Virus record (IMG/VR): IMGVR_UViG_3300033145_001743
Location: 1 to 24,805 of that record
Direction: 5' to 3' (one strand)
Length of the DNA stretch: 24,805 bases
Source of the DNA: a virus
The position numbers and the translations under genes were made by a program. Shown here piece after piece: positions 4,776 to 23,925 of the stretch; the first letter of the stretch is position 1; each line of letters begins with the position of its first letter. The notes beneath the pieces are model-generated. The model made no database searches. It was not told where the DNA came from and was given only the letters and a program-made list of their open reading frames with translations.

Positions 4776-4778
4776 TTT

Positions 4779-4798
4779 TACCCAAAATTTGTGGGGTA
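4779..4798 (+). promoter_or_regulatory. Small hairpin over the spike ribosome binding site
   Basis: TACCC (4779-4783) can pair with GGGTA (4794-4798) across a 10-nt AT-rich loop. The G-run is also the only Shine-Dalgarno-like sequence before ATG 4805, so pairing could dampen spike translation. The stem is only 5 bp, so this is a weak call. Confidence 0.3.
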
Positions 4799-4804
4799 TA
4801 CATA

Positions 4805-6013
4805 ATGCATGGTTTATATAATCCATATGATGATAGTTTATTGATGGCAGAGGTTGGTGGTATCAGAGGTGATGCTGGTTCTCAAGTGGTTAATCGTACC
4901 ATAACTGGTATGTTACGTGTTTCACCAAGTGGTGATGGTACTGATGGATTAACTTGGGATACAGCCTATCAAACCATACCATCTGCTCTTGATGCTGCTT
5001 CTACAAATGTTAATGATTGTACGCTAATACTTGTAACACCTAGTAGTGCAGGTTATGATATTAATACAACAGGTAATCCTACTTGGTCAGCTAATGTTAT
5101 ATTAAAAGGTACGCATAGAAATTGGGCTAAGGTAGTGAATACACACGAAAGTGCAACCTCGATACTAAAACTGACAGGAAAATCTGCCGTTTGTGATTTA
5201 AATTTTGATTTGGGCACCAGTGGTAATGGTTTGATAATGGAGCATGGTGGTGTTAGGGTATATAGTTGTCAGTTTATCGGTATTAATTTAGCTTCTGCTG
5301 GAGTTGGTCTAATTTTATCTAATTCTAATGCAAAGCATTGTAAGGTAGTTGACTGCGATTTTAGGGGTAATGTAACATACATGAAAGGTTTAGAATTTTC
5401 TAATTTTGGTTATTCTTTACTTGAGGATATTAGAATACATGATTGTCTTACTGGTGTTCATATACATGGTGCAAATTCTGAGGAAAATTTATTTTTTAAT
5501 ACAGATATAGGTGATTGTGCAACAGCAGTAGACATAGATGAGGGAAATCAGCAGCATTTTTATAAGTTAATATTGCACCGTAACACAGTTAATATAGATG
5601 ATGAAGTTGGTAATCATATATTTATGGATGTGTTTGGTGAATTATCTGTAATTGTAGCACCAAGTAATTTAACTGGTGTTACTGTAAATACTGGTGGTAG
5701 TGGTGATGTATGGGGAAACGACACTGAGTTACGTTCGGCTGCTTTAGCAACAAAACCTTTTAGAGTATTAGGATTATTTTCTGTACTATCTTCATCAGAC
5801 AAGTATTTAGTTAGGTTATCAGCAGATTCTGGTTCTTCTTATTTCGGTGCTTTTATTTTGGAGGGTGGTGTAAATGTTGCTGTTAGAACGGTAACACCAC
5901 AACCACAGGGTACTGAATTCATATTTAATAAAGGTACAAGAATTAGTGCATCAATTAAAAGCGAGACTGGTAATGATAATATAGAAGCTTGGTTAGAGTT
6001 ACAAGAGATATAA
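4805..6013 (+). CDS. Tail spike/fibre protein, parallel beta-helix
   Basis: A 402-residue protein. The N-terminal ~40 residues look like an attachment segment. Residues 38-75 (VSPSGDGTDGLTWDTAYQTI) match the opening of pectate-lyase-like beta-helix proteins, in which DG...W..A..TI begins the solenoid. The repeats CDLNF, VRVYSCQFIG, KVVDCDFRG, LEDIRIHDCLTGVHI and NTDIGDCATAVDI fit successive helix rungs with buried Cys and Asn. The last ~110 residues form a separate beta-rich C-terminal domain. No catalytic residues could be assigned, so depolymerase activity is possible but unproven. Confidence 0.8.
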   Translation: MHGLYNPYDDSLLMAEVGGIRGDAGSQVVNRTITGMLRVSPSGDGTDGLTWDTAYQTIPSALDAASTNVNDCTLILVTPSSAGYDINTTGNPTWSANVILKGTHRNWAKVVNTHESATSILKLTGKSAVCDLNFDLGTSGNGLIMEHGGVRVYSCQFIGINLASAGVGLILSNSNAKHCKVVDCDFRGNVTYMKGLEFSNFGYSLLEDIRIHDCLTGVHIHGANSEENLFFNTDIGDCATAVDIDEGNQQHFYKLILHRNTVNIDDEVGNHIFMDVFGELSVIVAPSNLTGVTVNTGGSGDVWGNDTELRSAALATKPFRVLGLFSVLSSSDKYLVRLSADSGSSYFGAFILEGGVNVAVRTVTPQPQGTEFIFNKGTRISASIKSETGNDNIEAWLELQEI

Positions 6014-8811: not shown

Positions 8812-10400
8812 TGAAAGAAAAAGTTTCGTTAAGCGAAGGTGATTTAGCTGTACTTGAGCTGTTAGATGATTCTGTACTTTTTTGCGAATTTGTAAGAAGT
8901 CAAGATGATGAGATAGATGATGGTGGTGGTTGGCACTACGATAATTATCAAAGAAAAATGTTGGTAGATAGTAATAATTATATATCTGTTGCTACTGGTC
9001 GTACTACAGGAAAGACAGCTACTATGGAAATAAAAATAATCTGGCTAGCCATTAAAAATATGTATAAAAGAGCAAGTGCCAATGAGATTTTACTTGTTGT
9101 GCAGAATAAAGCTCAATTAGAACCAGTATTTTTGCGGTTGTTGCAGCTTTTTAGAAGGCATCCATTTCTCAAGAATTTTGTTGATAGATTTAGTATAAAT
9201 ATGTCTAGTCATGAGATAAGGTTATTGAATGGGTGCCTAATAAGGTGCAGGATTGTTGGTTCTACAGCAGATAGCAATGTAATTGGTTTACATGTTCCGT
9301 GTATTTTTGTTGATGAAGGGCAGGTTTTTAACTATGCTGCTTGGAACTCATTAATGCAATGCCTAACAACTTGGGATGATAATTTTAGTCTTTGGGTTAG
9401 TGGTGTACCAAATGGTCTTCGTGAAAAGAATGTTTTATTTGAGTGTGACCAATTAGATGACAAGTTTTCTAGACACAATGTGTCTAGGTTAAGTAGCACC
9501 AGATACACAGAAGATCAACATAATTTTGACCTAAAACAGTACGGTGGTGAGAATGGTGATGATTATGTGCATCTTGTACTTGGTGAACATGGTTCACCAG
9601 CGTTTTCTGTTTTTGATAGAAAAATGATGTATATTGAGGATTATCCAGTTGATGTAAAGATTATGAATAACATAACTTTGGAACAACACTCTGGTCAATT
9701 TAATGAGATATTAAATGTTAGAGATTTACCACCAGATATACAAGATAAATATGATTTAATTATTGCTGGAATAGATGCTGGTTTTTCTAATGACCCTACA
9801 ATTATAACTATATTGTGGAGAGAAAAGTCTACGCTTGTTTGGAGAGAGTTTACTAGGATAGAGCTTCGTAGGATTAAATACCCTGTGCAAGCAAAGATAA
9901 TAGATTGGTTAGACACAATATATGGTTTTAACATGATAGCGATAGATGCTGGTCATTCTGGTTTAGCTTTGTGTCAAATTTTACAGGATGATGGTGGTGA
10001 TTTTAAGAATAAAGAGTTTTCAAAAAGGCTGATTCCTGTTGACTTCCAAGCAAACGTTGTTACTGGTTATGATGAGGATGATAAAGAAATAAAGGATAGG
10101 GTTAGGAAATTTACAATTCAGACATTACAGAAATGGAGTCAAAATGATCAGATAATTTGTTTTTCAACACAAGATGATGATGTAATATCTGAGCTTGAGA
10201 GAGTCGGTTTTACTAGAGATATGTTAGGACAACCAAAGTTTTTTGTTTACTCACCGCAGGGTGGTCAGAGGGGTGAAGATCACATTTTAGCATCTTTGCT
10301 TACTTGGGTTTATGGTTACTATTATGAGTATTATTCACCAGATAAACCAAATGCAAGGGGTAAGTACAAGGACCTTGCCAGAGGTGGTTGGTTTGTATAA
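8811..10400 (+). CDS. terL: Terminase large subunit (TerL), DNA-packaging ATPase-nuclease
   Basis: The motor that pumps DNA into the prohead and cuts it. It has 529 residues. The N-terminal ATPase has a Walker A deviant GRTTGKT (63-69), a Walker B CIFVDE (164-169) with the catalytic Glu, and a coupling motif SGVPNG (197-202). The C-terminal RNase H-like nuclease has the expected acidic triad: GIDAG (Asp322), AIDAG (Asp379) and GEDH (Asp490). The length is normal for the family. It overlaps the upstream gene by one base (TAATG) and is followed by portal after 14 nt, a standard packaging module. It is a confident anchor for phage origin. Confidence 0.95.
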   Translation: MKEKVSLSEGDLAVLELLDDSVLFCEFVRSQDDEIDDGGGWHYDNYQRKMLVDSNNYISVATGRTTGKTATMEIKIIWLAIKNMYKRASANEILLVVQNKAQLEPVFLRLLQLFRRHPFLKNFVDRFSINMSSHEIRLLNGCLIRCRIVGSTADSNVIGLHVPCIFVDEGQVFNYAAWNSLMQCLTTWDDNFSLWVSGVPNGLREKNVLFECDQLDDKFSRHNVSRLSSTRYTEDQHNFDLKQYGGENGDDYVHLVLGEHGSPAFSVFDRKMMYIEDYPVDVKIMNNITLEQHSGQFNEILNVRDLPPDIQDKYDLIIAGIDAGFSNDPTIITILWREKSTLVWREFTRIELRRIKYPVQAKIIDWLDTIYGFNMIAIDAGHSGLALCQILQDDGGDFKNKEFSKRLIPVDFQANVVTGYDEDDKEIKDRVRKFTIQTLQKWSQNDQIICFSTQDDDVISELERVGFTRDMLGQPKFFVYSPQGGQRGEDHILASLLTWVYGYYYEYYSPDKPNARGKYKDLARGGWFV

Positions 10401-10414
10401 AGAGGTATTTTAGC

Positions 10415-11908
10415 ATGGTTGAAAAAATAGAAGAAAATGAAAATTCAAGTGGTAATACCTTGAAGTTGGCTAAAGCTACAGCTAATATTTTGACTGATAG
10501 TTCTGGTTCTAGGTTGCTGTTTACAGAAGCTGTTGACAATATGGAAATACCAACTGATTTTCATAAGTTGATAAAAATATGCAGATTTTTTTACAAACGT
10601 GACCCAGTTGCTGGAACAGTTATAAACAAGATGGTTGATTGTGCAATTACACCAATAACTAACAGAAAATCAAAATGTACTGATACTGAATTTTATGTGT
10701 ATGATGCGCTTTCTGATATGTTACAAGCTTTCTTTAGAAATGCTTGTTTAGAGTATTTGTTATCTGGTCTTGTTGTACCAGAGTATGAGTGGAATAGAAT
10801 ACGTGGTAGTGACCTATCACAGGAACTTGGTTCTAGGATGAGGTTTAAAGTACCAGATAATATTTGGTTTAGGGATCCAGCAACTATCAAAGTAAAAAAT
10901 TCACCAATATCTAACAAGAAATACTATTATGTTACCATTTCAACGGAGTTGATTAATTTTATAAGGAATGATGGTAAACTAAAAGATGGTACTTATGACA
11001 AAGAAGCATATGATGCTCTTGTTAAGAATTATCCAGCTTTTGTAAAAGCTATAAAAGAATTAAAAGGTACTAAAGTCGAAATAAGATTAGAGGACATTAG
11101 ACCCATATTATCTAAGACATTAGCTGAGGATGCCTATCCAATACCATACATGAGCAATGCCTTAGAGTCACTTATGCACAAGAGAAACCTAAGAAAAATG
11201 GATTATTCTGTAGCTGCAAGGGTTACATCTGCTATACAATTAATTAGATTAGGTAGCGATGAATTTCCATGTACAGATGAGGGTGATTTTGATCACATAA
11301 AATCACAAATGAATTATAGGGTAGAGACTGGTAGGCAAGAGAGGTTGTTTCAGCTATTTGGTAATCATACATTACAGATAGAGTGGATTTTTCCAAATAC
11401 AGAAGCTATGTTAAATGTTGAAAAGTACAGGTCAGTAGACGATGACATAATATCTGCTTTTGGTTTTCCTAGAACGTTAATAACTGGTGAAACATTGAGG
11501 TCCAATGTGCAAGGTGGTTCTGATTTTGCGGCTTTTTCACCAATAGCTACTATGGAAACAATTAGAGATATATTAATCGAGTGGTTAAAGACTATGTACA
11601 AGGAAATAAAAGAACAAAACAATTTTAAGAGTTCTCCAATACCTAATTTTACACCAATGAGGTTGTATAAGCTATTAGATTTGAGTATGATTGGTGAATC
11701 ACTTTATAAAGAAGGAAATCTTTCGAGACAAACAAGGCAAGAAGTTGTTGGTTTTGATTTTGAAACAGAGATTGAAAGAAAGGAACAAGAGACTAAGCTT
11801 TATAAGGAAAAGGGTATACCAGAAGCACCAGAAGTACCATATTCTTCTCCAAATATAGGTAAAGTTGATAAAGAAACAACTGATACTAAAGAGGAAAAGG
11901 TAGAATAA
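10415..11908 (+). CDS. Portal protein
   Basis: A 497-residue protein following TerL. The portal forms the dodecameric ring at one capsid vertex through which DNA enters and to which the tail attaches. Early residues (KICRFFYKRDPVAGTVINKMVD) match the start of many portal proteins, in which a segment about one previously visited region precedes a long alpha/beta core; a YRSVDDDIISAFGFPRTLITGE stretch lies near residues 335-355, where portals of this type have a similar motif. The C-terminus is a charged tail. ATG 10415 is chosen for its AGAGGTATT site (10401-10409); a TTG frame extension to 10388 overlaps TerL and lacks one. Confidence 0.85.
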   Translation: MVEKIEENENSSGNTLKLAKATANILTDSSGSRLLFTEAVDNMEIPTDFHKLIKICRFFYKRDPVAGTVINKMVDCAITPITNRKSKCTDTEFYVYDALSDMLQAFFRNACLEYLLSGLVVPEYEWNRIRGSDLSQELGSRMRFKVPDNIWFRDPATIKVKNSPISNKKYYYVTISTELINFIRNDGKLKDGTYDKEAYDALVKNYPAFVKAIKELKGTKVEIRLEDIRPILSKTLAEDAYPIPYMSNALESLMHKRNLRKMDYSVAARVTSAIQLIRLGSDEFPCTDEGDFDHIKSQMNYRVETGRQERLFQLFGNHTLQIEWIFPNTEAMLNVEKYRSVDDDIISAFGFPRTLITGETLRSNVQGGSDFAAFSPIATMETIRDILIEWLKTMYKEIKEQNNFKSSPIPNFTPMRLYKLLDLSMIGESLYKEGNLSRQTRQEVVGFDFETEIERKEQETKLYKEKGIPEAPEVPYSSPNIGKVDKETTDTKEEKVE

Positions 11909-11926
11909 AGATTGTAGAGGATTGGT

Positions 11927-12874
11927 ATGGTAAAAAGGTTTCAATTTATTTATGATTTTACTCAATATAACTTATCGTTGAGTTTAATTGAAGATGAGAT
12001 GGTGGTACGTGGATGGGAAATTGTTAAATGTACACCTAAAACATATAATCTTGATAAAGATGTAAGAGGAAGCATTTCTTGTCAGACTGGTGATTGGATA
12101 CACAAAAAACCTCCAAGTAGTCCATCGTTTCTTGTTTTTCATGGTGTTTCTTTTATAAAAAACTGGGCAAGATGTTATCCAGATTGGGACTATGTTATTG
12201 TGCCAAGTAAATTTTTTGAGGATAATGTATCTGGCAATGTTTTAGGTTTGGGGTGGTCGAAGAGTGATTATTATATAAATAACAAAGATAAAAAACAAGT
12301 TTTTAAAGAGCTTATCAAAAAGCATCAAAATATAGAAAACGACAAACCAATAATCCTATTTGCACCAACATATAGTAAATCTGGTGGATTACAAATTCCT
12401 GGCAATGCTGATAAACTTATGGAGATTGTCAGCTATTTGAGTAACTATAATGTTATATTTATGCCACATGAGATGTGTGATTATAAGAATAAGTATAAGG
12501 ATTATAGATTTACAGTAAAGTCTAGTTATAGTTCAAAGTGGGATTATTTGTTAGGAAGTGATTTATTAATAAGTGATACATCAAGTCTAGTTTTTGAGTT
12601 TGCTTTATTGGATAAACCAATTGTTTTGTTAGAAAATACAAAATATACTGACTATTTGAAGGTGTCTGGTAGTGATATGACAGAGTTTTTGGATTTGGGT
12701 GATGTTATATCTGTTGATTGTTTAGATGGATTAGAAGATTCTGTAAGTTATTCTCTAAATAACCCAGAGAAGTATACTAATAGAAGAAAATACTGGGTTG
12801 ATAAATCTTTGAGTTATTGTGATGGTAATTCTACTAAAAGGATTGTTGACAAGATGGAGGAAATTTGTGGATGA
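11927..12874 (+). CDS. CDP-glycerol glycerophosphotransferase-like (TagB/TagF family) protein
   Basis: A 315-residue GT-B fold protein. Motifs of the teichoic-acid glycerophosphotransferase family are visible: VFHGVSF (70-76), FAPTY (145-149), the H in MPHE (181), SDLLISDTSSLVFEF (211-225) and LDKPIVLLE (228-236). Family members move a polyol phosphate from a CDP-activated donor, such as CDP-glycerol, to a growing polymer or primer. The length is short because the usual N-terminal membrane-binding region is reduced, suggesting a soluble protein. It directly follows portal and is followed by a methyltransferase (8-nt overlap), so it belongs to a decoration cassette. Substrate and acceptor are unknown. 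Confidence 0.75.
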   Translation: MVKRFQFIYDFTQYNLSLSLIEDEMVVRGWEIVKCTPKTYNLDKDVRGSISCQTGDWIHKKPPSSPSFLVFHGVSFIKNWARCYPDWDYVIVPSKFFEDNVSGNVLGLGWSKSDYYINNKDKKQVFKELIKKHQNIENDKPIILFAPTYSKSGGLQIPGNADKLMEIVSYLSNYNVIFMPHEMCDYKNKYKDYRFTVKSSYSSKWDYLLGSDLLISDTSSLVFEFALLDKPIVLLENTKYTDYLKVSGSDMTEFLDLGDVISVDCLDGLEDSVSYSLNNPEKYTNRRKYWVDKSLSYCDGNSTKRIVDKMEEICG

Positions 12875-13541
12875 CTTATTTGGTATAGACAAGAAAAAGT
12901 ATCCGATGGTTGGTAATGAGCAGTGGATGTATTGGGGAGATAAGAGTAAAGGAACGATTGGAAGGGCATTTACTAAGGATGAGTACTTTAACCGCTATCA
13001 AAAACATAATCATAAAATAGTTGATACTATAGTATCTTTATGTGAACCAAAGAATGTACTTTCGTTGGGATGCGGTTTAGGTTTTGATGTAGAAAGGTTT
13101 GTTCAGTTGGGTATTGATGTTACTGGTATAGAGATAACAAAGGATGCAATAGCCAATTCACCAGCCAGTAATAAAATAGTTTGGGGATCAGCTACTGATT
13201 TATCTAAGTTTTCAGATAATTTTTTTGATATTGTTGTTTCTTTGGAACTATTAGAGCATTTACCACCAGAGCTTACGGAGCAGACAATAAGCGAGATTAA
13301 ACGTGTCGGTTGTAGACGGGGTATTTTGACAATTGGTAGGGGAACACAAGACCCTACTCATATAAACTTACGTCCAAAAGAGGAGTGGATAAAACTATTA
13401 TCACCTATTGATTACTTGCTTCAGGATGAGATTGGTAGCAGTCTCAAAGAGAAGAGGTTAGTTGATATGGTGTGGGATAGAGTTTATGTAATGAGGTTAG
13501 AAAATGAAGGCAATAATATTAGCGGCGGGGATGGGCACTAG
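12867..13541 (+). CDS. SAM-dependent methyltransferase, class I
   Basis: A 224-residue protein with a Rossmann-fold methyltransferase core: motif I LSLGCGLG (about 65-72), the acidic end of strand 2 in GIEIT (87-91), a SATDLS loop, and FFDIVVSLELLEHL (119-132), the motif of small-molecule and sugar methyltransferases (Methyltransf_11/23 type). The substrate cannot be told. GTG 12867 is chosen because GGAGG lies 7 nt upstream; an in-frame ATG at 12819 is deep in the previous gene and has no site. It overlaps the gene before by 8 nt and the gene after by 38 nt, so it is translated as part of the cassette. Confidence 0.8.
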   Translation: MDDLFGIDKKKYPMVGNEQWMYWGDKSKGTIGRAFTKDEYFNRYQKHNHKIVDTIVSLCEPKNVLSLGCGLGFDVERFVQLGIDVTGIEITKDAIANSPASNKIVWGSATDLSKFSDNFFDIVVSLELLEHLPPELTEQTISEIKRVGCRRGILTIGRGTQDPTHINLRPKEEWIKLLSPIDYLLQDEIGSSLKEKRLVDMVWDRVYVMRLENEGNNISGGDGH

Positions 13542-14598
13542 GATGGGGATTGATTTCCCCAAAGCACTTTTAGAAATAGATGGTAAAACAATATTAGAAC
13601 ATAAGGTTACAGGATTAAAGGATATAGGTATTGAGGATATTTATGTTGTTACTGGTTACAAAAGTGAGATGTTTCCAGATTTAGGAGACTCTGTAGAGTA
13701 TGTTAATAATGATAGGTTTGCGGAGACTGGTAATGCTTATAGTTTTAATTTAGCATTACAACAGTGTGGTACAGACGACTTTGTTGTTTGTATAGACGGC
13801 GATTTGATGTTAGATTATCGAATCTTTTTCGATATAAAACCAAAGTTCCAGTATTTTGTTGATAATTTGAGACACTTTTGGCAACCAGGAGAGTTGGGTG
13901 TTCACATAGATTTCAACAATAGGGTTGTTGATATTAGTCGTGAATATGACTATTGTGTGATGTTGGGATTGGCAGTCTATCCTCCAGAGTTTGTTAGAAA
14001 GTTGTCAAAAAGTTTAAATGGTGTTGAAAAGGAAGAACTAGTTTCTATAGTTCGTAAACATATAAGCTCGTTTCATGCCACACCAGAATTTGTAAAGTAT
14101 GATTGGATGGAGATAGATACTAGCAAGCAATACGAAGAAGCAAAGGTTTTATTTGATAATCCTAAATTAGAGTTATGTGATTCAATAACTCTAAAAGAAT
14201 TAAATTCTTTATATAAAGATATGGGTGAATTTGGTGGACTTCATCTTAGTATGCGTAATTTGGAGCGTGACAGTACAATAATAAAAAATTCAACATATGT
14301 TGTAGTTAGAAGAAACGGAAGAGTTATTGGTTCTGGAAGATACTTTACAGACGGTGCGTATGTTGTTGCAATTTGGGATGTTATGGTAAGACCATCGTAT
14401 CAAGGAATAGGTGTTGGTACTACAATTACCAGAGAGTTATTTAGAAAAGCAGAGTTATTGAATCCGATTAAGGTCTTTCTCATTGCTGATCCTGGTAAAG
14501 AAGACTTTTATCGTAGATTTGATATGGAAGTGACAAGAGCACCAGCTATGGAAAGGAGGTATGATTATGATAGATTTTCGCCAAATTGGGAAGGATAA
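13504..14598 (+). CDS. LicC-like nucleotidyltransferase fused to GNAT acetyltransferase
   Basis: A 364-residue two-domain protein. Residues 1-220 form a nucleotidyltransferase: AAGMGTRMGIDFPKAL (7-22) binds the NTP, CIDGD (96-100) carries the metal-binding Asp, and WMEIDT (201-206) supplies a second. The pattern with an early TGNAYSFNLAL segment is closest to phosphocholine or aminoethylphosphonate cytidylyltransferases (LicC/PntC) rather than to glucose-1-phosphate enzymes. Residues 225-350 form a GNAT N-acetyltransferase with VMVRPSYQGIGVG (293-305), the acetyl-CoA loop, and a DFYRRF motif near the end. It could activate a phospho-compound with CMP and acetylate its amine. It overlaps both neighbours. 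CMP specificity is inferred. Confidence 0.82.
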   Translation: MKAIILAAGMGTRMGIDFPKALLEIDGKTILEHKVTGLKDIGIEDIYVVTGYKSEMFPDLGDSVEYVNNDRFAETGNAYSFNLALQQCGTDDFVVCIDGDLMLDYRIFFDIKPKFQYFVDNLRHFWQPGELGVHIDFNNRVVDISREYDYCVMLGLAVYPPEFVRKLSKSLNGVEKEELVSIVRKHISSFHATPEFVKYDWMEIDTSKQYEEAKVLFDNPKLELCDSITLKELNSLYKDMGEFGGLHLSMRNLERDSTIIKNSTYVVVRRNGRVIGSGRYFTDGAYVVAIWDVMVRPSYQGIGVGTTITRELFRKAELLNPIKVFLIADPGKEDFYRRFDMEVTRAPAMERRYDYDRFSPNWEG

Positions 14599-15898
14599 GA
14601 TTGATGATGCTAAAAAACTTCTTGAAATCAAAAAATCACTTGGTGTCGCCAGTTCTGGAGATATTGATAGACTTTTTGTTATTTCTGGTGCTGATGGTGA
14701 ATTTGTTTATGATGTCTGGGGTAAAAAGTATATAGATTGCACATCTCAGGGTTGGGTCAGTGCTATTGGTCATAGTCATCCTAGAATAAAGGAAGCCGTA
14801 AAAAAATCTATAGATAATAATCTAATACACGTTCGTCCAAGTTATTATACAATACCGAAACTTGAATTGGCACAAAAGTTGGTTGATATTGCACCAGACA
14901 ATATAACTAAAGTGAATTTTTGTCTTCATGGTTCGTTAGCAGTTGAAGGTGCTATTAAACTTGTTCTATTAAAGAATCCAGACAAACCGATAGCAGTCCT
15001 TGATACTGGTTTTTGTGGTAGAAGCATCGCTACTGGTTCTTTGAGTTGGGATTACTTGGAAAAAGAGGAGTTTTATCGGCTTAAAAATGAAGTTGTCAGG
15101 ATACCAAGCGCATATTGTTATAGGTGTAAGTTTGGTAAAAGTAGAGGTAACTGTAGTTTTGAGTGTGTTGAGTATGCTGATAAGATTTTTCGTGAGAAAA
15201 AACCAGGTATGTTTATATATGAACCAATACAGGGTAATGGTGGTCAAATAGTTTTTCCTTATGCTTATCATAAACTAATGAGAGATGTTTGTACTAAGCA
15301 TGGTATTGCTATGGTTGTTGATGAAATGCAGACAGCATTTGGTAAATTACCAGAAATGTTTGCTTCTTATTTGTATGATATAAAACCAGACATTATTACA
15401 GTTGGTAAAGCGTTGGGAGGAGGTTTACCACTTGCAGCTACTTTATACAGTGATGAATTTGATTTTAGAGGTGGTGATCATACGTTTACATTTGCAAGTT
15501 TTCCATTGAGTATGGTATCAGCACTAGAAACGTTGAAAGTGTTAGAAGATGAGAATATATGTGAACAAGCAAGTGAGAAAGGTGAAATTTTTCTTAGTTC
15601 TTTACTAGCATTACAAAAGAAGTACCCAATTATTGGTGATATACGACAAGAGGGTATGTTGATTGGTGTAGAGTTAGTTAAAGATGTAGAAACAAAGGAA
15701 CCTATGCCAGACGAAGTTCAGAAGTTGATAGATTTTGGTATCCATAACGGTGTGTTGTTCGGTTGTGATAAACATGCTGGTCTTGGTAGTACACTAAAAA
15801 TAAAACCTCCATCGATTATAAGTTATGAAAATATAGCTAATGTTTTATGTGTATTAGAGTATGGATTAAGTATTATAGCAAAAAATTTGGGGGTCTAA
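14567..15898 (+). CDS. Class III PLP-dependent aminotransferase
   Basis: A 443-residue fold-type I enzyme that moves an amino group to an aldehyde or ketone. It shows the DVWGKKYIDC opening, GHSHP (68-72), the cofactor phosphate-binding HGSLAVEGAIK region, VVDEMQTAFG with the cofactor Asp252, and VGKALGGGLP with the Schiff-base Lys281. A Cys group (CYRC ... C ... C, about 184-200) is common in 4-aminobutyrate/2,4-diaminobutyrate-type members. ATG 14567 is favoured because AGGAGGT (14554-14560) ends 6 nt before it; ATG 14561 is too close. It overlaps the nucleotidyltransferase-GNAT gene by 32 nt, so the two probably work in one pathway, giving an amine for later acetylation or activation. Confidence 0.92.
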   Translation: MIDFRQIGKDKIDDAKKLLEIKKSLGVASSGDIDRLFVISGADGEFVYDVWGKKYIDCTSQGWVSAIGHSHPRIKEAVKKSIDNNLIHVRPSYYTIPKLELAQKLVDIAPDNITKVNFCLHGSLAVEGAIKLVLLKNPDKPIAVLDTGFCGRSIATGSLSWDYLEKEEFYRLKNEVVRIPSAYCYRCKFGKSRGNCSFECVEYADKIFREKKPGMFIYEPIQGNGGQIVFPYAYHKLMRDVCTKHGIAMVVDEMQTAFGKLPEMFASYLYDIKPDIITVGKALGGGLPLAATLYSDEFDFRGGDHTFTFASFPLSMVSALETLKVLEDENICEQASEKGEIFLSSLLALQKKYPIIGDIRQEGMLIGVELVKDVETKEPMPDEVQKLIDFGIHNGVLFGCDKHAGLGSTLKIKPPSIISYENIANVLCVLEYGLSIIAKNLGV

Positions 15899-15899
15899 A

Positions 15900-16364
15900 A
15901 TGCCATATGGTATAAAGAACGAAACAAAGGAGCAAACGGAGTGGATGGAAGGGTGTGTTTCCAGTATTTCTGGAATTAATAAAAAGACTGGAAAAGCATA
16001 TACAAAAAGTGAGAAAATAGCTATTTGTAAAGTTCAACTGTTTAAGAAGGAAGAGTCTGAAGCTGTTAGTGAGGAAAGCATCAGAGAACAGTACTATAAT
16101 CTAGAAGATAAGGTGTATAATGAAATAAATAATGGTAGAGGTTTGAAGTCAAACACATATGTTGTAGATATTTTTGACAGTTATATAATAGTTGAAGTTG
16201 ATAGCAAAATGTACAAGGTTAATTATAATATTTCTGGTGATGATGTTATAATTAATTGGGTTGGTTCTGTAGAGGTAGAGCGTATTACTGAATACAAAAC
16301 TGTAGAGGCAACCAAAGGAAAAGTTATGAATAGGGTTGTTACATATGGTGGTAATACATTATAA
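15900..16364 (+). CDS. Head morphogenesis-associated protein
   Basis: A 154-residue protein in two parts. Residues 1-50 contain a Cys-bounded helical segment (GCVSSIS ... AYTKSEKIAICK), like short N-terminal domains that phages carry on head proteases and related proteins. Residues 85-130 (YVVDIFDSYIIVEVDSKMYKVNYNISGDDVIINW) match a small beta domain that often accompanies prohead protease genes. Here the module stands alone, separated from the protease by a glycosyltransferase gene. It begins 1 nt after the aminotransferase stop, with GGGGG upstream. A capsid assembly role is inferred from the module and location. Confidence 0.55.
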   Translation: MPYGIKNETKEQTEWMEGCVSSISGINKKTGKAYTKSEKIAICKVQLFKKEESEAVSEESIREQYYNLEDKVYNEINNGRGLKSNTYVVDIFDSYIIVEVDSKMYKVNYNISGDDVIINWVGSVEVERITEYKTVEATKGKVMNRVVTYGGNTL

Positions 16365-16373
16365 GGAGTATTT

Positions 16374-17525
16374 ATGAAAGTTTTTTGGATAGGTGATGCT
16401 ATAGTAAATTCTGGTTTTAGCAGGGTTACTCATAGTATTTGTAATGAGCTTAGTGAGAAGTGTGAGGTTGTTGTATATGGTATTAGGTACGATGGTAAAA
16501 TTAGACACGGTAACAAATATTATATATATCCAGCACAAAGTGGCAGTGATTGCTACTCGTTTGATGATGTATCTAGGGTTATACTAAAAGAAAATCCAGA
16601 CGTTGTAGTTATTTTCAATGATTTGTGGGTTATCGAACAATATTTGATAGACATTAAAAATAAAGTTGAAAACTACGAAATAAAAGCAAGGTTTGTTCCA
16701 TTTTTACCTGTAAATTATTTACCAATTGATAAGAAACATATTCTAAATCTTTCTCTTTTGGGTGTTTCGACTGTTTTGTCTTACACTGATTTTTCTGGTT
16801 CTGCTATTAGAGATATAAACCCTAACCTTGATATTGTTACTGTTTCTCATGGTGTAGATAGGGACATCTTTTATCCAATTGACGATGTTAAGAAAAGTCA
16901 GAATTTAGAAGATTTTTTTGTGGTTGGTAATATAAATTCTAATACATACAGAAAACGGTTAGATTTATTTTTGATTGGTTTTTATAAGTTTGCCAGAAAC
17001 AAGTCAGATGTTAAGTGTCTTATACATGCAAGTAACAACGAGATATCATATGATTTACGTGATATTGCTAAAGATTTGGGTATATCAGATAAGGTAATAA
17101 TTAGTGAAAGAAGTTTGTCAAATGATAATATTAATTTGCTTTATAATATGTTAGATGTTAATGTCAATACTGCTATGGGAGAAGGTTTTGGTCTTACGTT
17201 AGCTGAAGGTGCTTCGTGTGGTGTACCTATAATCTGTTCTGACATTGGTAACTTTCACAGCATATGGGGAGATTGTGCTGAGTATATTGCTACAAATCAT
17301 GTTGAGTATGTTAGTGGTACCACGTACAATGGTGTTGTAATAGACACAGATGATTTAGCTTCTAAGCTAAATATTCTTTATGAGAATAGGGAATATCTTA
17401 ATCTTAAAAAACGTGAAACACTAAAAAAGATTGAGTCACCTAAGTTTAATTGGAAAACAATATCTGATAACATATATAATACTCTTTGTGATGTTGATAA
17501 TGGTAGGGTTAGTGTTATTTCATAA
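16374..17525 (+). CDS. Glycosyltransferase family 4
   Basis: A 383-residue retaining GT-B glycosyltransferase, moving a sugar from a nucleotide donor. The N-terminal half begins MKVFWIGDAIVNSGFSRVTH, with the acceptor-domain SGF loop. The C-terminal half has VSHGVD (157-162), the donor-phosphate-binding NTYRKRLD (190-197) and the EX7E motif MGEGFGLTLAEGAS (Glu270 and Glu278), followed by CGVPII. It has no membrane segment, so it is probably soluble. AAGGAG at 16363-16368 sets the start. It resembles the N-terminal half of the fusion at 21976 in layout (short N-terminus, SGF/TGY motif). Substrates are unknown; virion or host glycan modification is inferred. Confidence 0.88.
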   Translation: MKVFWIGDAIVNSGFSRVTHSICNELSEKCEVVVYGIRYDGKIRHGNKYYIYPAQSGSDCYSFDDVSRVILKENPDVVVIFNDLWVIEQYLIDIKNKVENYEIKARFVPFLPVNYLPIDKKHILNLSLLGVSTVLSYTDFSGSAIRDINPNLDIVTVSHGVDRDIFYPIDDVKKSQNLEDFFVVGNINSNTYRKRLDLFLIGFYKFARNKSDVKCLIHASNNEISYDLRDIAKDLGISDKVIISERSLSNDNINLLYNMLDVNVNTAMGEGFGLTLAEGASCGVPIICSDIGNFHSIWGDCAEYIATNHVEYVSGTTYNGVVIDTDDLASKLNILYENREYLNLKKRETLKKIESPKFNWKTISDNIYNTLCDVDNGRVSVIS

Positions 17526-17553
17526 GTTTTTTTTGCGTTTTTCTTTGTTTTAC

Positions 17554-17584
17554 TTCACTAAACCATAAAAAGCGTTAATATATA
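17554..17584 (+). promoter_or_regulatory. Bipartite promoter-like motif, copy B
   Basis: TTCACTAAA (17554-17562), 11 bp, GTTAATATATA (17574-17584): the same boxes and spacing as at 598-628. It lies in a 100-bp gap, 41 nt before the protease start, ahead of the protease-scaffold-capsid block, where a strong late promoter would be expected. A poly-T stretch just upstream (17527-17534) has no stem and is not a clear terminator. The promoter role is inferred from the repetition and position. Confidence 0.55.
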
Positions 17585-17625
17585 TATAGAGGTATATTGT
17601 ATATACTAGTTTGAGGTATGTTTAT

Positions 17626-18210
17626 ATGAAAGAAGCGGTATTTAATGTTGGTATAGAGTTTGTTGATGATGATTTAGCTACTGCTGGAATACCAGAAGAA
17701 TACAAGAACCCTCTTTTGTCTTGGGTGCGGTTCATCTTTACAGACGATTTACCAAATGCAAATAATCAGGGTATTGGACAAGATGAGTTTGATAACCTTG
17801 TCAAGTCTATGTCTTATATGCCAATCAAAGCTAAGTTTGATAATGAGTTTGGTTTAGAAGGACATTCTGAAGCTTCAATAATTGGTGTAATAAAGGAAGG
17901 AAGACAAGAGGATAATAAAATTGTAGCAATTGGTGCTTTATACAAGGATGAGGTTTCTGATGTTGTTGCGTTTTTTAAGCAAGAGCTGTCTGATGGCAAT
18001 AGTGTTGATTTTTCTTGGGAAATAAGGTATATGGATTCAGAAGAGAAAGATGGTACTGAGTGGTTGCGTGATGTTACTACTAAGGCTGTTACAGCCGTAC
18101 AAAATCCAGCATACGAAGGTAGAACACCTTTAGTTTCTATAAGTAGTAAAGATTTACTAGATAGTGTAACTAGAGAAATAGAAAGAAGAGAAGCCTCAGG
18201 TGTTGTATAG
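17626..18210 (+). CDS. Putative prohead protease
   Basis: A 194-residue protein directly upstream of a coiled-coil scaffold, the usual place for the capsid maturation protease. Such proteases cut the scaffold and the capsid delta domain before DNA packaging. Features are a MPIKAKFD strand, GLEGHSEASIIG with a candidate catalytic His80, and NSVDFSWEI with candidate Ser126 or Ser130, then the AVQNPAYEGRTPLVSI segment. This order of His then Ser fits the herpesvirus-type assembly protease fold. ATG 17626 is chosen because GAGGT (17613-17617) lies 8 nt upstream; a TTG at 17611 would overlap that site. Sequence identification is moderate; context strongly supports it. Confidence 0.72.
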   Translation: MKEAVFNVGIEFVDDDLATAGIPEEYKNPLLSWVRFIFTDDLPNANNQGIGQDEFDNLVKSMSYMPIKAKFDNEFGLEGHSEASIIGVIKEGRQEDNKIVAIGALYKDEVSDVVAFFKQELSDGNSVDFSWEIRYMDSEEKDGTEWLRDVTTKAVTAVQNPAYEGRTPLVSISSKDLLDSVTREIERREASGVV

Positions 18211-18228
18211 TTGCAAGGAGGAGCTAAT

Positions 18229-18852
18229 TTGATAAATTTAACGGATATTTCTACAGCACAACTGAAAGAACTACAAAAAATTCTAAGCGTTGGTGTTGTT
18301 GCTCAAGCAGAACTTGACACGTTGGATGCTGAAGCTGTTGTTTCTGATGATAGTTACAAAACAATAAATAACGAGGTATTTAGTATGGAAGATAAAGAGA
18401 AGATTGAATCTCTTGAACATGAAAATGCTACTCTAAAGGGAGAAAGAGATTCCCTAACAAATGAAAAGGTCGAGCTTGAAGAGAAAGCATCTCAAGTTGT
18501 TTCACTTACTGATGAGTTGAATAGTCAGAAGGAAGAGCTTGAATTGCTTAGACAATTTAAGAAAGAGGCTGAAGAGGTTGCTGAAAGGCAACGCAAGATT
18601 GATGATATTTCGTCTAAACTTGAAGAGGCTGGAATAGAATTCGATGCTGAAAGTGATTCTGATTATTGGTTGAGTATGACTGAAGACATTATGGATAAAA
18701 CTATAAACAAGTTTAAGTCACTTAGTAAGAAAACAGAAGCATCTGTAAAGATTAATGTTCCTCCAATAAGAAGTTCAGACGATGTAAATGATTCAAGTGC
18801 TGTTTCTGTTGTTTCTGACGGTTTAAAAGAAATAAAACAATCAAAGATATAG
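18229..18852 (+). CDS. Scaffolding protein with probable internal start
   Basis: A 207-residue acidic protein starting at TTG 18229, with a perfect AAGGAGG (18215-18221) upstream. Residues of about 53-125 form a long heptad-patterned coiled coil rich in Glu, Lys and Leu, typical of the internal scaffold that shapes the prohead and is removed before packaging. The C-terminus is basic, as needed to bind the capsid protein. An in-frame ATG at 18385 (residue 53) has its own GAGGTATT site (18373-18380) and would give a 155-residue scaffold without the N-terminal 52 residues. This gene lies between protease and decoration genes, fitting a scaffold role. Confidence 0.72.
   Translation: MINLTDISTAQLKELQKILSVGVVAQAELDTLDAEAVVSDDSYKTINNEVFSMEDKEKIESLEHENATLKGERDSLTNEKVELEEKASQVVSLTDELNSQKEELELLRQFKKEAEEVAERQRKIDDISSKLEEAGIEFDAESDSDYWLSMTEDIMDKTINKFKSLSKKTEASVKINVPPIRSSDDVNDSSAVSVVSDGLKEIKQSKI
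18373..18387 (+). promoter_or_regulatory. Internal ribosome binding site and start in scaffold gene
   Basis: GAGGTATTTAGTATG: GAGGTATT (18373-18380) followed by ATG 18385, in frame with the scaffold. The same GAGGTATT-type site precedes portal (10402), decoration (18854) and the gene at 21066, so it is this phage's strong signal. It probably starts a shorter, second scaffold product. Confidence 0.55.
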
Positions 18853-18865
18853 TGAGGTATTCTAA

Positions 18866-19465
18866 ATGGGAGTAGAAATTAGATTAAGAGGCACAGCTAT
18901 ACCTTGTATAGCACAAGAGGACATCGTTGCTGGTCGTGCTGTTAAGTTGGGTGAAGCTAGTAATAATCCTAGAATTTTGGGTGGTACAGCTACTCCAGAT
19001 CCTAGGTTACAAGACGGTATTTATAACGTTTTGCAAGGAGCGTCCTTACCTACTGGTGATGATGATGCTGAGGCTAGGTATGTGGCTGCGTTCCGTGTTT
19101 ATAACGAAAAACCACCACTTTATGAGACTTTACCAGTTACCGATGTCGGTGATAGTTCCGTTCCTTATACTTTAAGGAATTTTGTTGCGGGTAGTGAGAA
19201 TCTACCAGCCGATGTTACTTTGCGTATGGTAGCACCAAGACTTAAGGAAAATGAAACCATTGCGTCTGGTGCGTTGATGCTGGCTTATGATGATGGTATT
19301 TATACCATTACAAGTGGAAGTTTTTATGCTGGTACATATACCATCGGTAATAAGATTAGTGTTAAAACTAGTGGTGTTTGGTATGAAAGTTCTAATGCTA
19401 GGGTTGGTATTGTTTTAGAGCAAAACACCTCTAAAAACACACTAACCATAAAGACTGGTAGGTAG
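18866..19465 (+). CDS. Capsid decoration/stabilising protein, putative
   Basis: A 199-residue beta-rich protein between scaffold and major capsid protein, the usual site of the head decoration or capsid-stabilising gene. The N-terminal half reads RGTAIPCIAQEDIVAGRAVKLG, a short beta-barrel opening found in small phage capsid proteins (DUF2190-like), and the C-terminus ends RVGIVLEQNTSKNTLTIKTG. There is one Cys and no Lys/Cys motif for crosslinking. GAGGTATT (18854) is a strong ribosome binding site, suggesting high expression with the capsid protein. The assignment rests on position and beta composition, so a different minor capsid role is possible. Confidence 0.6.
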   Translation: MGVEIRLRGTAIPCIAQEDIVAGRAVKLGEASNNPRILGGTATPDPRLQDGIYNVLQGASLPTGDDDAEARYVAAFRVYNEKPPLYETLPVTDVGDSSVPYTLRNFVAGSENLPADVTLRMVAPRLKENETIASGALMLAYDDGIYTITSGSFYAGTYTIGNKISVKTSGVWYESSNARVGIVLEQNTSKNTLTIKTGR

Positions 19466-19475
19466 TAAAAAATTT

Positions 19476-19504
19476 TTGTGGGGAGTATTATTTGCTCCCC
19501 ACAA
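19476..19504 (+). promoter_or_regulatory. Perfect 10-bp hairpin upstream of the capsid gene
   Basis: TTGTGGGGAG (19476-19485) and CTCCCCACAA (19495-19504) form a perfect stem with a 9-nt loop. It lies between the decoration gene and the capsid ribosome binding site (AGGTG 19507). No T-run follows, so it is not a simple terminator. It may stabilise the capsid mRNA 5' end, act as an RNase processing site or attenuate read-through. Confidence 0.65.
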
Positions 19505-19515
19505 GTAGGTGTAAT

Positions 19516-20436
19516 ATGGATGATATTAAATTTAAGGAAGCGTTAGCTGAAGTTGCTAAGACAGATAAAAGAGCTTTATCTGAATTAATAGTAGAGTACA
19601 TTGATCCAAAACATGTTAGTAGAGACATTGTTGGTATTTTTATGAATACTAGGTCTCTTAATCCTGGAGATGCGTACGTAAAAAAGGTTAGACGTGGTAT
19701 TGAGGTAAGGCAATTGGTTCCTGGTCAAGATACTCTGTCAAGTCAGATAACAGTAAAAGATACTGTTACGCACGCTCTTGATACAGCTTATGCAGAAGTT
19801 TCCCATAATGAATGGGAGGTTGAGTCTGGAGAAATTGGTACTATAGATGAAATAAGAAATGAAATGATGGCTAAGTTCTCAGATTTCTATGTTGTAAAGG
19901 TTATGAATGCATTATATACGCTGGCTACTATTAACGATAGTGCTAACTTTTGGTATGTAACAAGTTTGCTACGTTCAACACTTGAGGATGCTATTGATTC
20001 TATTTCTGATATTGCTGGAACAGTTAGGTCTGTTGTAGGTAGACGTACAGCATTAGCTCCCATAACTAAGTTCGCTGGTTATAGGATTGGTGTTGGTGCT
20101 ACTGAGTCGGCTGGTTATCCTGTACCAGTATCAAGTGCATTAGAGGAAATTCGAAGAACAGGTTGGTTTGGTATGTACTATGGTGCTAATTTTGTAGCCC
20201 TTGAACAGGTCTACGACAATGAGTATGATAGGAACAAACTAATTCAAGATGACTTAATTGTTGTTGTTGGTGATTCTTGTGGTGAGTTTATTACCTATGG
20301 AGAACCAAGAGAAGATCAGTGGTCTGAAATGAAAACTGCCCCTCCTACTTGGCATCTTAGGATATATCAACAGTATGGTCTTCTGTTTGACAAAATGGAA
20401 AATGTTGGTATAATTAGAACTGATTCTGGTTCCTAG
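19516..20436 (+). CDS. Major capsid protein
   Basis: A 306-residue protein after the decoration-like gene, and a good length for an HK97-fold capsid protein. The N-terminal helical segment (KFKEALAEVAKTDKRALSEL) is followed by an extended region with RQLVPGQDTL, then the beta-helical core (YAEVSHNEWEVESGEIGTIDEI), a long helix-rich domain with RTALAPITKFAGYRI, and a C-terminal VVVGDSCGEF/TWHLRIYQQYG strand set, typical of this family. ATG 19516 follows AGGTG (19507-19511); the frame could extend to TTG 19492, but that lies inside the hairpin arm. The hairpins on both sides fit a heavily expressed message. No lysine-based crosslink motif could be assigned. Confidence 0.82.
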   Translation: MDDIKFKEALAEVAKTDKRALSELIVEYIDPKHVSRDIVGIFMNTRSLNPGDAYVKKVRRGIEVRQLVPGQDTLSSQITVKDTVTHALDTAYAEVSHNEWEVESGEIGTIDEIRNEMMAKFSDFYVVKVMNALYTLATINDSANFWYVTSLLRSTLEDAIDSISDIAGTVRSVVGRRTALAPITKFAGYRIGVGATESAGYPVPVSSALEEIRRTGWFGMYYGANFVALEQVYDNEYDRNKLIQDDLIVVVGDSCGEFITYGEPREDQWSEMKTAPPTWHLRIYQQYGLLFDKMENVGIIRTDSGS

Positions 20437-20454
20437 TTTTGGTTGTTAATTAAT

Positions 20455-20474
20455 GGGGGTTGAAATATACCCCC
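20455..20474 (+). promoter_or_regulatory. GC hairpin downstream of the capsid gene
   Basis: GGGGGT (20455-20460) pairs with ACCCCC (20469-20474) over an 8-nt loop, and TTAA repeats can extend the stem on both sides. It lies 18 nt after the capsid stop. There is no run of T after it, so a weak terminator, 3'-end stabiliser or partial read-through element are all possible. Confidence 0.5.
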
Positions 20475-20531
20475 TTAACTTAATTGGAAGAGAGGCTCAA
20501 AAGATTAAGTATAAAAATTTAAAGGAGAAAA

Positions 20532-21804: not shown

Positions 21805-21976
21805 AAGAATAAGATATGCAACAAGCAATAAGGGAAAAAACATACTACAAAGGTATCGTACTGCTAACCCAAATCCAGAGACCTTTTGGCAGGCATTTTT
21901 TGCTACAATTAGATTATTTACACCGCTGTTAAGGAGCTATGGTTTTTACAAAGGTTCTATTGAGGAAAGGATATAA
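21782..21976 (+). CDS. Small basic protein, uncertain
   Basis: A 64-residue ORF with a basic N-terminal half and ANPNPETFWQAFFATIRLFTPLLRSYGFYKGS at the C-terminus, which looks like an amphipathic or membrane-touching helix. It has no strong ribosome binding site, overlaps the zinc-ribbon gene by 23 nt, and its TAA overlaps the ATG of the glycosyltransferase fusion (TAATG), which supports it as a true coupled gene. An alternative short ORF starts at 21815 in another frame, so the call is tentative. Confidence 0.42.
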   Translation: MLSIYTTKRIRYATSNKGKNILQRYRTANPNPETFWQAFFATIRLFTPLLRSYGFYKGSIEERI

Positions 21977-23925
21977 TGAAGTTTATTTGGTTAAGTGTGG
22001 CACCTTGGGCAGTGACTGGTTATGGAACCGTGACCAGAGCAATTGTACGTAATGTAGATTGGAATGGTTGTAAAGTAATTAGCGGAATGGATGTAGGTAG
22101 ATTAAATAGATTAGCAATTAGAGAAGAAGTTGATTTTATAATAACTTTACTTGATATTCATACTTTAGGTGTATTTCCTAGAAGATGGGTAGCATATAGT
22201 CCCATAGATGTTCAAACTTGTCCATTGTCTGTTAAGTCTAGACTTGATGGTGTTAAATATTTAATATCTATGAGTAAACATGCTAAAGCAGCATATAGTG
22301 ATGCTGGACATAAATCAACATATTGTCCTCATGGTGTAGATACAGATGTATATTATGTTGATGATAATCATAGGAAAGCAGCTAGAAAACGTCTTAATTG
22401 GGAAAGTAATTTTGTTGTTGGTACTGTCGGTGTAAATTACACAGACCAAAGAAAAAATTTCGTGAATTTATTATTTGCTTTTAAGACATTACATGATAAT
22501 TATCCAGAAACAAGATTGTTTATGAATACCAATATGGTTGATGATGGTAATGCATATCCGTTACCAATGATAACAGATAGTTTAGGAATTTCTGAATTTG
22601 TTCGATTTGTTGATTCTGATGATTATTATAGTGGTAATATAACTGATATAAATATGGCTAATGCTTATAGGGCAATGGATGTTATGTGTTTACCAACCAA
22701 AGGAGAAGGGTTTGGTCTTCCTTTAATAGAGGCACAAGCTTGTGGTACACCAATAATAACTACAAATGCATCGACTGGACCTGAGTTAACCTACGGTGGC
22801 TGGTTGATTAAGCTTGGTAAATATGATTGGGAATGGTTTAACAAGTCTTGGAGATCAAATGCAAGCTCTCAGTCAATATATGAATCATTAAAAGAGTCTT
22901 ATAAAGCATGGAAAAATGGTACAATACGTGACATTGGTATACAGGCTTCTGAGCAAATCTCTAAAGAATATAATTGGGATTATGTGTTTGATACTTATTG
23001 GAAACCGATACTAAATGATTTGAATAATTTTGATATTGTACCAAACAATATGCCAGATTATAATAAGTTGTATAACATATTTGATGGTAGAATAATGATG
23101 GGTAACTGTTCTACATGGTGTAAATTAGAAAAATGTCCATATTATAGATTTAATCTTTATGGAGAAACTGAAGCAGAAAGAAACATTATGTCAAGAAGTT
23201 ACCCAGTAATACCAGATAAAAACGGAAAATTGTTTGTTGATACTAGGTGTCCACTTCACAATTGGATTTCAAAGAGGTTTAAACAACAGGTAAAAGAGTC
23301 TTTTGATTATTTGTGGGGATTTCCTAGGGTACGTGATTTATTTAGTAAAGATTTACCATCAACATATATATCAATAGATGATATAAATTATGACTTTGAT
23401 GATAAATATAAGTGGGCTATGCAAAGTCATTATAGAACAATATGTCCAGATTTATCAGAGTTTATACCAAAAGGTAGTAAAGTTCTTGATATAGGTTGTG
23501 GAGATGGGGCAAGGATAGGAGAATTACGTGATAAAGGGTTTGACGCTTTGGGGTGTGAAATCAACAAAACTTGGGTTGGAGGCTTTGTAGATTATGGTAG
23601 TGCTGAATGCTTACCATATGATGACAATTCTTTTGATGTTGTCCTCTCTATAGATGTATTAGAGCATCTAGAAAATCCTATCATTGCTTTAAAAGAAATG
23701 TTTAGAGTTTGTAAAAATAGAGCTTTTATTATCATTACACCGATGGAAGCTGGAGAATTCTACGAAGACCCGACTCATAAAGTTGAATGGGACATTTCTC
23801 GATGGAAACGTGAGATAAGTGAATTTGGAGAAATAGAAGGCGTGTTCCCTCCATACGGATTTTTAGTTATGAATTTGGAGGAAAAAAATGGCGCAAGACA
23901 AATAATGAAGGTCTTGGAGAATTAG
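21976..23925 (+). CDS. GT4 glycosyltransferase-Cys cluster-SAM methyltransferase fusion
   Basis: A 649-residue three-part enzyme. Residues 1-345 are a GT-B glycosyltransferase: TGYGTVTR (14-21), CPHGVD (117-122), NYTDQRKN (154-161) and the EX7E motif GEGFGLPLIEAQ (Glu244 and Glu252). Residues 370-430 are a linker with C378-x3-C382-x4-C387 and C425, probably a metal site, possibly zinc or Fe-S. Residues 485-649 are a class I methyltransferase: VLDIGCGDGA (503-512), CEIN (527-530), SAECLPYDDNSFDVV (542-556) and SIDVLEHLENP. One polypeptide could thus transfer a sugar and methylate it, or cap a chain. The start overlaps the previous TAA. The stop lies inside the next, broken gene. Confidence 0.85.
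   Translation: MKFIWLSVAPWAVTGYGTVTRAIVRNVDWNGCKVISGMDVGRLNRLAIREEVDFIITLLDIHTLGVFPRRWVAYSPIDVQTCPLSVKSRLDGVKYLISMSKHAKAAYSDAGHKSTYCPHGVDTDVYYVDDNHRKAARKRLNWESNFVVGTVGVNYTDQRKNFVNLLFAFKTLHDNYPETRLFMNTNMVDDGNAYPLPMITDSLGISEFVRFVDSDDYYSGNITDINMANAYRAMDVMCLPTKGEGFGLPLIEAQACGTPIITTNASTGPELTYGGWLIKLGKYDWEWFNKSWRSNASSQSIYESLKESYKAWKNGTIRDIGIQASEQISKEYNWDYVFDTYWKPILNDLNNFDIVPNNMPDYNKLYNIFDGRIMMGNCSTWCKLEKCPYYRFNLYGETEAERNIMSRSYPVIPDKNGKLFVDTRCPLHNWISKRFKQQVKESFDYLWGFPRVRDLFSKDLPSTYISIDDINYDFDDKYKWAMQSHYRTICPDLSEFIPKGSKVLDIGCGDGARIGELRDKGFDALGCEINKTWVGGFVDYGSAECLPYDDNSFDVVLSIDVLEHLENPIIALKEMFRVCKNRAFIIITPMEAGEFYEDPTHKVEWDISRWKREISEFGEIEGVFPPYGFLVMNLEEKNGARQIMKVLEN

Follow-up and report, generated by a model that had tools for sequence, protein, structure and literature searches.

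The stretch of DNA analysed here, which we call the window, is the complete IMG/VR record IMGVR_UViG_3300033145_001743 (24.8 kb; 24,805 nucleotides). It is evidently a genome fragment, since its longest relatives are contigs of 134-153 kb, and the lineage consists of uncultured large phages. Between the portal and protease genes of its head module lies a run of genes for sugar and polyol chemistry. As judged from comparison with related contigs, this fixed site almost certainly holds exchangeable glycan cassettes, and close relatives can differ completely in the cassette they carry. The window was annotated by calling open reading frames (ORFs) and scanning them against Pfam, PHROGs and NCBIfam, with Pfam matches judged at curated cut-offs. 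All enzymes that a first-pass annotation, made by a model from the letters alone, had named between portal and protease scored above those cut-offs.

The variable cassette proper spans positions 11927-15898 and contains four genes, all on the plus strand. The first (11927-12874) encodes a TagB/TagF-like CDP (cytidine diphosphate)-alcohol phosphotransferase (Glyphos_transf PF04464, E-value of 2.6e-24) with profile matches to the solved TagF, TarL and Cps3D. Orthologues occur in four related loci (L002, L013, L006 and L005), and the protein lies below the curated equivalog cut-offs for TarL (55 versus 1000 bits), TarF (46 versus 550) and TarB (20 versus 500). The second gene (12867-13541) encodes a class I S-adenosylmethionine (SAM)-dependent methyltransferase (Methyltransf_11, 1.2e-13), whose orthologues are 61-67% identical. 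Judging by the L002 homologue, it most likely starts at the GTG at 12867, which is preceded by GGAGG (12857-12869). In the third gene (13504-14598), a nucleotidyltransferase domain (NTP_transf_3, 6e-17) and a GNAT acetyltransferase domain (Acetyltransf_1, 2.7e-10) are fused in one ORF. The nucleotidyltransferase domain forms the N-terminal part, and its top PDB match is LicC (1jyk, E-value of 6.9e-14), so the LicC-like label given at first pass holds; cytidylyl specificity is a prediction. The AlphaFold model of the fusion was too poor for use (pLDDT 42). The fourth gene (14561-15898) encodes a class III pyridoxal phosphate (PLP) enzyme, aminotransferase or racemase-like (Aminotran_3, 1.5e-74), in which K283 and D254 are invariant across three orthologues. 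As a lone query, this protein found no confirmed relative in viral contigs, the exact short patterns being too specific; the gene is present in L002, L003 and L006.

The overlaps noted at first pass between these four genes are real, measuring 8 nt between transferase and methyltransferase and 38 nt at each of the two later junctions. No terminator-like site turned up when 10300-20500 was scanned for patterns, and the region is in keeping with a single operon, without proof of one. No LicA choline kinase, LicD or TagD partner domain was detected among the window cassette genes in the Pfam and NCBIfam scans. One Solidesulfovibrio and one Haladaptatus plasmid each also carry a TagF-like and a LicC-like gene side by side and overlapping, in the order seen in the window. 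This recurrence on cellular plasmids supports a route in which a CDP-alcohol is made and its phospho-alcohol is then transferred.

The cassette is framed by conserved head-module genes, all on the plus strand. To its left lies the portal gene (10415-11908; PHROG portal matches), which is kept in all relatives at 58-93% identity among them. To its right, a small ORF at 15900-16364, overlooked at first pass, is 46-56% identical across phages with differing cassettes. An ORF of this type ends every cassette whose right end was recovered beside it (nine loci); L108 and L109 deviate from this arrangement, and in L109 (904-4104) the protease is preceded by a collar-domain protein and a glycine-rich protein, which replace the small ORF and the glycosyltransferase that otherwise follows it. 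The AlphaFold model of the small ORF product was of middling quality (pLDDT 66), and Foldseek returned no match at E <= 0.001. The glycosyltransferase, GT4a (16374-17525; PF00534, 3.1e-14; PHROG 2170), had been listed with the cassette enzymes and instead belongs to the conserved core. Next come the putative prohead protease (17626-18210), named from its position and the first-pass call and with a weak PHROG match, and the putative major capsid protein (19492-20436), a backbone marker named from position and conservation (PHROG 16565, of unknown function). The protease and the downstream scaffold-like, decoration-like and capsid genes are conserved in relatives (57-70%), with the putative capsid protein 74-82% identical. 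Beyond the capsid gene, Pfam matches confirmed the GT4-methyltransferase fusion reported earlier (21976-23925). It is 25-30% identical to relatives' proteins, and the relatives hold another core GT4 past the capsid gene. Among the large relatives, GT4a was found in five of six and the second, capsid-downstream core GT4 in all six. No further PF00534 match was found in the six large records, and the core GT4s are confined to the head module.

The same gene set, which we call type A, was found near the portal in four related phages. Searching with the nucleotidyltransferase-GNAT protein retrieved L002 (a 138,618-base contig, 84% identity), L003/L013 (75%) and L006/L007/L010 (a 152,753-base contig, 69%), while the portal query retrieved L005, whose contig ends within the set. 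The order portal, TagF-like gene, methyltransferase, nucleotidyltransferase-GNAT, aminotransferase is constant in all type A loci as far as sequence extends, save that L005 has no methyltransferase between the TagF-like and nucleotidyltransferase-GNAT genes. Since the same genes, order and site recur in L002, L003/L013, L006/L010 and L005, the type A set is not a chance assembly. The window carries its shortest version. L002 and L013 have two extra methyltransferases; L006/L010 have one of these, followed by an adenosine phosphosulfate (APS) kinase fused to a cytidylyltransferase-like domain and then by a sulfotransferase (L006 11660-13194), an apparent virus-encoded sulfation step.

Other relatives hold other genes at this site. 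A TerL alignment yielded 29 loci of one backbone, to which a portal alignment added L094 and L098; the shared backbone comprises o206, ClpP-like, dut, DUF4406-like, nrdA, small terminase-like, TerL and portal genes. Some 17 same-backbone contigs carry non-type-A sets, and at least six unrelated gene sets occupy the portal-adjacent site across the relatives. The cassettes range from about 4 to 14 sugar-chemistry genes, with centres of 4-13 kb. L040 (= L012) encodes RmlA-like, RmlD and GMD/RmlB-like proteins, five GT2-type glycosyltransferases, a radical-SAM protein, GFO/IDH and DegT. L041 (= L016) has HAD, a PseF-like CMP (cytidine monophosphate)-nonulosonate synthetase, NeuB, TylF and HldE-like proteins, a split transketolase, two radical-SAM/SPASM proteins and a methyltransferase. 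L045, together with L047, L004 and L094, encodes an epimerase, GMD (GDP-mannose dehydratase; above the curated cut-off), GNAT, DegT, a C-methyltransferase and, in most, NUDIX. L044 (= L025) carries Asn-synthase-like, epimerase, GMD, C-methyltransferase and B12/radical-SAM genes, and L048 (= L026) carries GT2, HldE-like and GMD-like genes. L017, with L014, L015, L028 and L029, has KdsD-like, KdsC-like and NTP transferase genes, with an MptE/Maf-like protein in L017. Finally, L046 (= L027) encodes Asn-synthase-like, DegT and epimerase proteins, a GT2-MptE fusion, GFO/IDH, a DHQ-synthase-like protein and an FGGY kinase. The GFO/IDH oxidoreductase, DHQ-synthase-like and FGGY kinase genes are consecutive (L046 8706-12825), which suggests a phage cyclitol pathway.

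Of 60 scanned cassette proteins, 51 matched sugar-activation, sugar-modification, glycosyl-, methyl-, acetyl- or sulfotransferase, or radical-SAM families. Most NCBIfam equivalog cut-offs were unmet by cassette proteins, so these names do not fix the exact sugars. The first-pass annotation had read the window genes as a phage pathway that activates, aminates, acetylates and transfers a CDP-linked polyol or sugar. This is still the best chemical reading of type A, which is one of at least six sets; a fixed pathway particular to the phage group was rejected, as relatives hold other gene sets at the site.

How completely the site can be replaced is clearest from L012 and L032. Their nrdA, TerL, portal and capsid proteins are 88-90% identical, yet none of 11 cassette genes is shared at 40% identity or more. 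On the DNA level, an alignment of 82.5% identity ends roughly 90-100 bp before the portal stop codon and restarts, at 80%, 4 bp before the 15900-type ORF, leaving unrelated centres of about 11.6 and 10.4 kb. Backbone and cassette similarity were also uncoupled in other pairs. L020 and L032 are 70% identical in TerL, 64% in portal and 53% in GT4a, with cassette genes up to 87-88% identical, and the window and L002 have portals of 63% and nucleotidyltransferase-GNAT proteins of 84% identity. L011 is a mosaic, in which RmlA- and epimerase-type genes from one set stand together with a TagF-like gene that shares 45% identity with the window's. In the 21 pairs (not independent of one another) drawn from the seven genomes that have both flanks, TerL identity tracked that of the capsid (Spearman 0.71) and showed no correlation with cassette sharing (-0.10). 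The type A junction recurs in metagenomes 3300033145, 3300038673, 3300027917 and 3300000362, and the type B junction in 3300017971, 3300014613, 3300014656 and 3300025314. Seven records each span both flanks and the centre; for one of these, the contig must be taken as circularly permuted.

As to the role of the cassettes, we give slightly better than an even chance to the region being an exchangeable glycotype locus whose soluble enzymes decorate virion proteins in the cytosol. There, the enzymes would yield an activated sugar or polyol, which transferases would attach to virion proteins during assembly. The core GT4s (GT4a and the one past the capsid gene) would build a common part, to which the cassette would add a variable part. 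In the window, family membership suggests that the class III enzyme aminates a small phospho-alcohol or sugar and that the GNAT domain acetylates the amine. The LicC-like domain would then form the CDP derivative, the TagF-like enzyme would transfer the phospho-alcohol and the methyltransferase would tailor the product. Swapping the cassette would give the virion a new surface chemistry with its structural proteins unchanged.

That the chemistry is soluble and acts on a cytosolic acceptor is suggested by the fact that neither export machinery nor a multi-spanning cassette protein was found. In simple hydropathy analysis of 176 cassette ORFs (a few duplicates included), the number of candidate membrane segments per ORF never exceeded one; outside the cassettes, the proteins with two to four such segments in five large genomes were all small or structural. 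The flippase family PF13440 and the initiating-enzyme family PF02397 were absent from seven records, and PF00953 from six, while control genomes were positive. Virion proteins are the suggested acceptor, given the place of the cassette in the head module. Among solved structures, GT4a comes closest to B736L, a glycosyltransferase of chloroviruses (3oy2, 3.2e-26). Chloroviruses glycosylate their own capsid protein, and the likeness is suggestive only in its bearing on capsid glycosylation here.

Several points weigh against this proposal, and we put the decoration mechanism itself at about even odds. Modification of virion proteins is a prediction from gene content and the acceptor is putative, all sequences are metagenomic contigs, and membrane segments were assessed by simple hydropathy alone. 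The transferases could use host lipid-linked intermediates. The order of the steps and the identity of the alcohol were guessed from what is known of the enzyme families. The class III enzyme may be a racemase rather than a transaminase, since its solved relatives span aminotransferases and amino-acid epimerases/racemases. Furthermore, comparable islands in pelagimyophages, cyanophages and jumbo phages have been interpreted as remodelling the surface glycan of the infected host.

Such remodelling, of an O-antigen, capsule or teichoic-type polymer, would exclude rival phages or alter recognition, with the phage giving precursors and transferases and the host giving lipid carrier, flippase and polymerase. 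We consider it a possible but less probable role for the cassettes. TagF, LicC and GT2 families mainly make bacterial surface polymers, which fits a host target. Conversely, the cassettes yielded neither a flippase nor an initiating transferase nor a multi-spanning protein, the flippase and initiating-enzyme families searched for were absent from the large relatives, and the site among late structural genes would make expression late for superinfection exclusion. The missing export machinery favours the virion over the host surface as the likely target. A Wzx/Wzy-type locus, in particular, was rejected, with PF13440, PF02397 and PF00953 absent and no multi-spanning ORF in the cassettes.

The cassettes might alternatively serve DNA hypermodification, in which a hydroxymethylated base is glycosylated, aminated, acetylated or methylated against restriction; many phage glycosyltransferases target DNA (reviewed in PMC12619734). 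A thymidylate-synthase-like ORF (212-215 aa) is present in three large genomes, G001 (L064 73-720), G002 (L050 14280-14927) and G005 (L073 9325-9963). The two others of the five, G003 and G004, lack it while carrying full cassettes, which lowers the standing of this explanation, and the cassettes sit in the head module, away from DNA metabolism genes. We know of no DNA precedent for CDP-alcohol or phosphoadenosine phosphosulfate (PAPS)-type chemistry, and regard a DNA target as improbable.

We judge it similarly unlikely that the site is a recombination hot spot holding metabolic cargo, either auxiliary metabolic genes or genes for a small secreted metabolite, with no role in the particle. Hypervariable islands of T4-like phages also hold unrelated metabolic genes (PMC2984593), and radical-SAM and cyclitol-type genes are present here. 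Still, the contents are uniformly devoted to carbohydrate activation and transfer rather than to mixed metabolism, and the core GT4s are retained alongside. Although every sequence here comes from metagenomic contigs and gene families of this sort are plentiful in bacteria, assembly chimeras of phage and bacterial DNA were rejected as a very remote explanation of the variable centres, as identical junctions recur in independent metagenomes and seven records span both flanks and the centre.

Phage particles are commonly described via their proteins. If entire sugar pathways are exchanged within the head genes of a lineage, the surface chemistry of its virions would be a fast-evolving trait of its own, affecting adsorption, recognition and particle stability. 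The site may be a phage serotype locus, at which whole cytosolic pathways (for deoxysugars, nonulosonates, cyclitols, CDP-amino-polyol phosphates and sulfated forms) are swapped as units, giving near-identical particles with chemically different coats, apart from any exchange of tail fibres. We put this forward tentatively, as somewhat less than an even bet. By analogy, the data suggest that these phages swap the chemical coating of the particle or host much as bacteria switch capsule types. Natural matched pairs, with backbones of about 90% identity and wholly different cassettes, make the virion-glycan purpose directly testable, and the cassettes are a source of numerous phage enzymes whose chemistry may be new, among them the window's LicC-GNAT fusion.

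Bacterial O-antigen, capsule and flagellin glycosylation loci likewise combine fixed flanks with a variable centre and modular nucleotide-sugar pathways, and the MptE/Maf-like proteins of L017 and L046 add to the likeness. The loci described here differ in being phage-borne and flanked by head genes, with no flippase or initiating transferase found and no polymerase. From LicC/TagF CDP-alcohol systems, type A differs in its GNAT fusion, its class III PLP partner, the lack of LicA, LicD and TagD, and its scores below the TarB, TarF and TarL cut-offs.

Among phages, variable carbohydrate islands are already known (PMC7029224, PMC2984593, PMC7824862). The host recognition cluster (HRC) of pelagimyophages, located at VrlC-gp14, including tail fibres and averaging 44.6 kb, is similarly a big, non-syntenic island in the structural region with glycosyltransferases, deoxysugar enzymes and radical-SAM cassettes (PMC7029224). 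The present site instead lies between portal and protease, has centres of 4-13 kb and no tail-fibre genes among the scanned cassette proteins; moreover, the HRC pair compared in that study diverged gradually, whereas replacement here is complete between backbones of 88-90% identity. In cyanomyoviruses, the available parts of PMC2984593 and PMC7824862 describe a hyperplastic region at g15-g18, with 4-14 genes inserted in the structural module, and lipopolysaccharide (LPS) clusters in P-SSM2, which hold complete sets for sugar production and glycosyl transfer and are polymorphic between related phages. What is shared with both kinds of island is a non-syntenic set of carbohydrate genes in the structural module. 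The position differs, the g15-g18 genes cited in those parts belong to carbon metabolism, and no combination of TagF, LicC and class III enzymes is named there. The present site, from portal to 15900-type ORF and protease, matches neither VrlC-gp14 nor g15-g18.

Phage virion glycosylation is also known: as cited in PMC12619734, mycobacteriophages carry glycans on capsid and tail tube subunits (Freeman et al. 2023). Glycosyltransferases encoded among virion genes, here GT4a and the second core GT4, are a shared feature. The mycobacteriophage glycans were measured on virions, whereas the present case is made from genes, with a putative acceptor and with whole precursor pathways encoded and exchanged as blocks. 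Our searches of the open-access literature turned up no description of a carbohydrate cassette located between portal and protease. New, to the extent searched, are this location, the exchange of whole pathways between near-identical backbones, the conserved GT4 frame beside a variable part, and the combination of TagF-like, LicC-GNAT and class III enzymes.

At the sequence level, a tblastn search of 50,697 phage records, T4-like phages included, gave no match to TerL at 1e-5. TerL and the nucleotidyltransferase-GNAT protein, used as queries against 84,980 bacterial and archaeal genomes, retrieved no relative, and we therefore name no host or donor for the lineage.

Further variation was observed outside the cassette. 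TerL (L026, L028 and L029) or nrdA/RNR (L008 and L016) matches are interrupted by insertions of about 1 kb, as would be expected of introns or inteins bearing homing endonucleases. Between dut and nrdA, the window carries four ORFs (2867-6013), of which two have homologues found only in L027; by eye, one is LamG/lectin-like (4068-4775) and one beta-helix-like (4805-6013). This stretch looks like a second variable site. Lastly, a perfect sigma-70-like motif, TTGACA-16-TATAAT with a TG preceding the second hexamer, lies at 20387-20414 of the window, inside the 3' end of the putative capsid gene.

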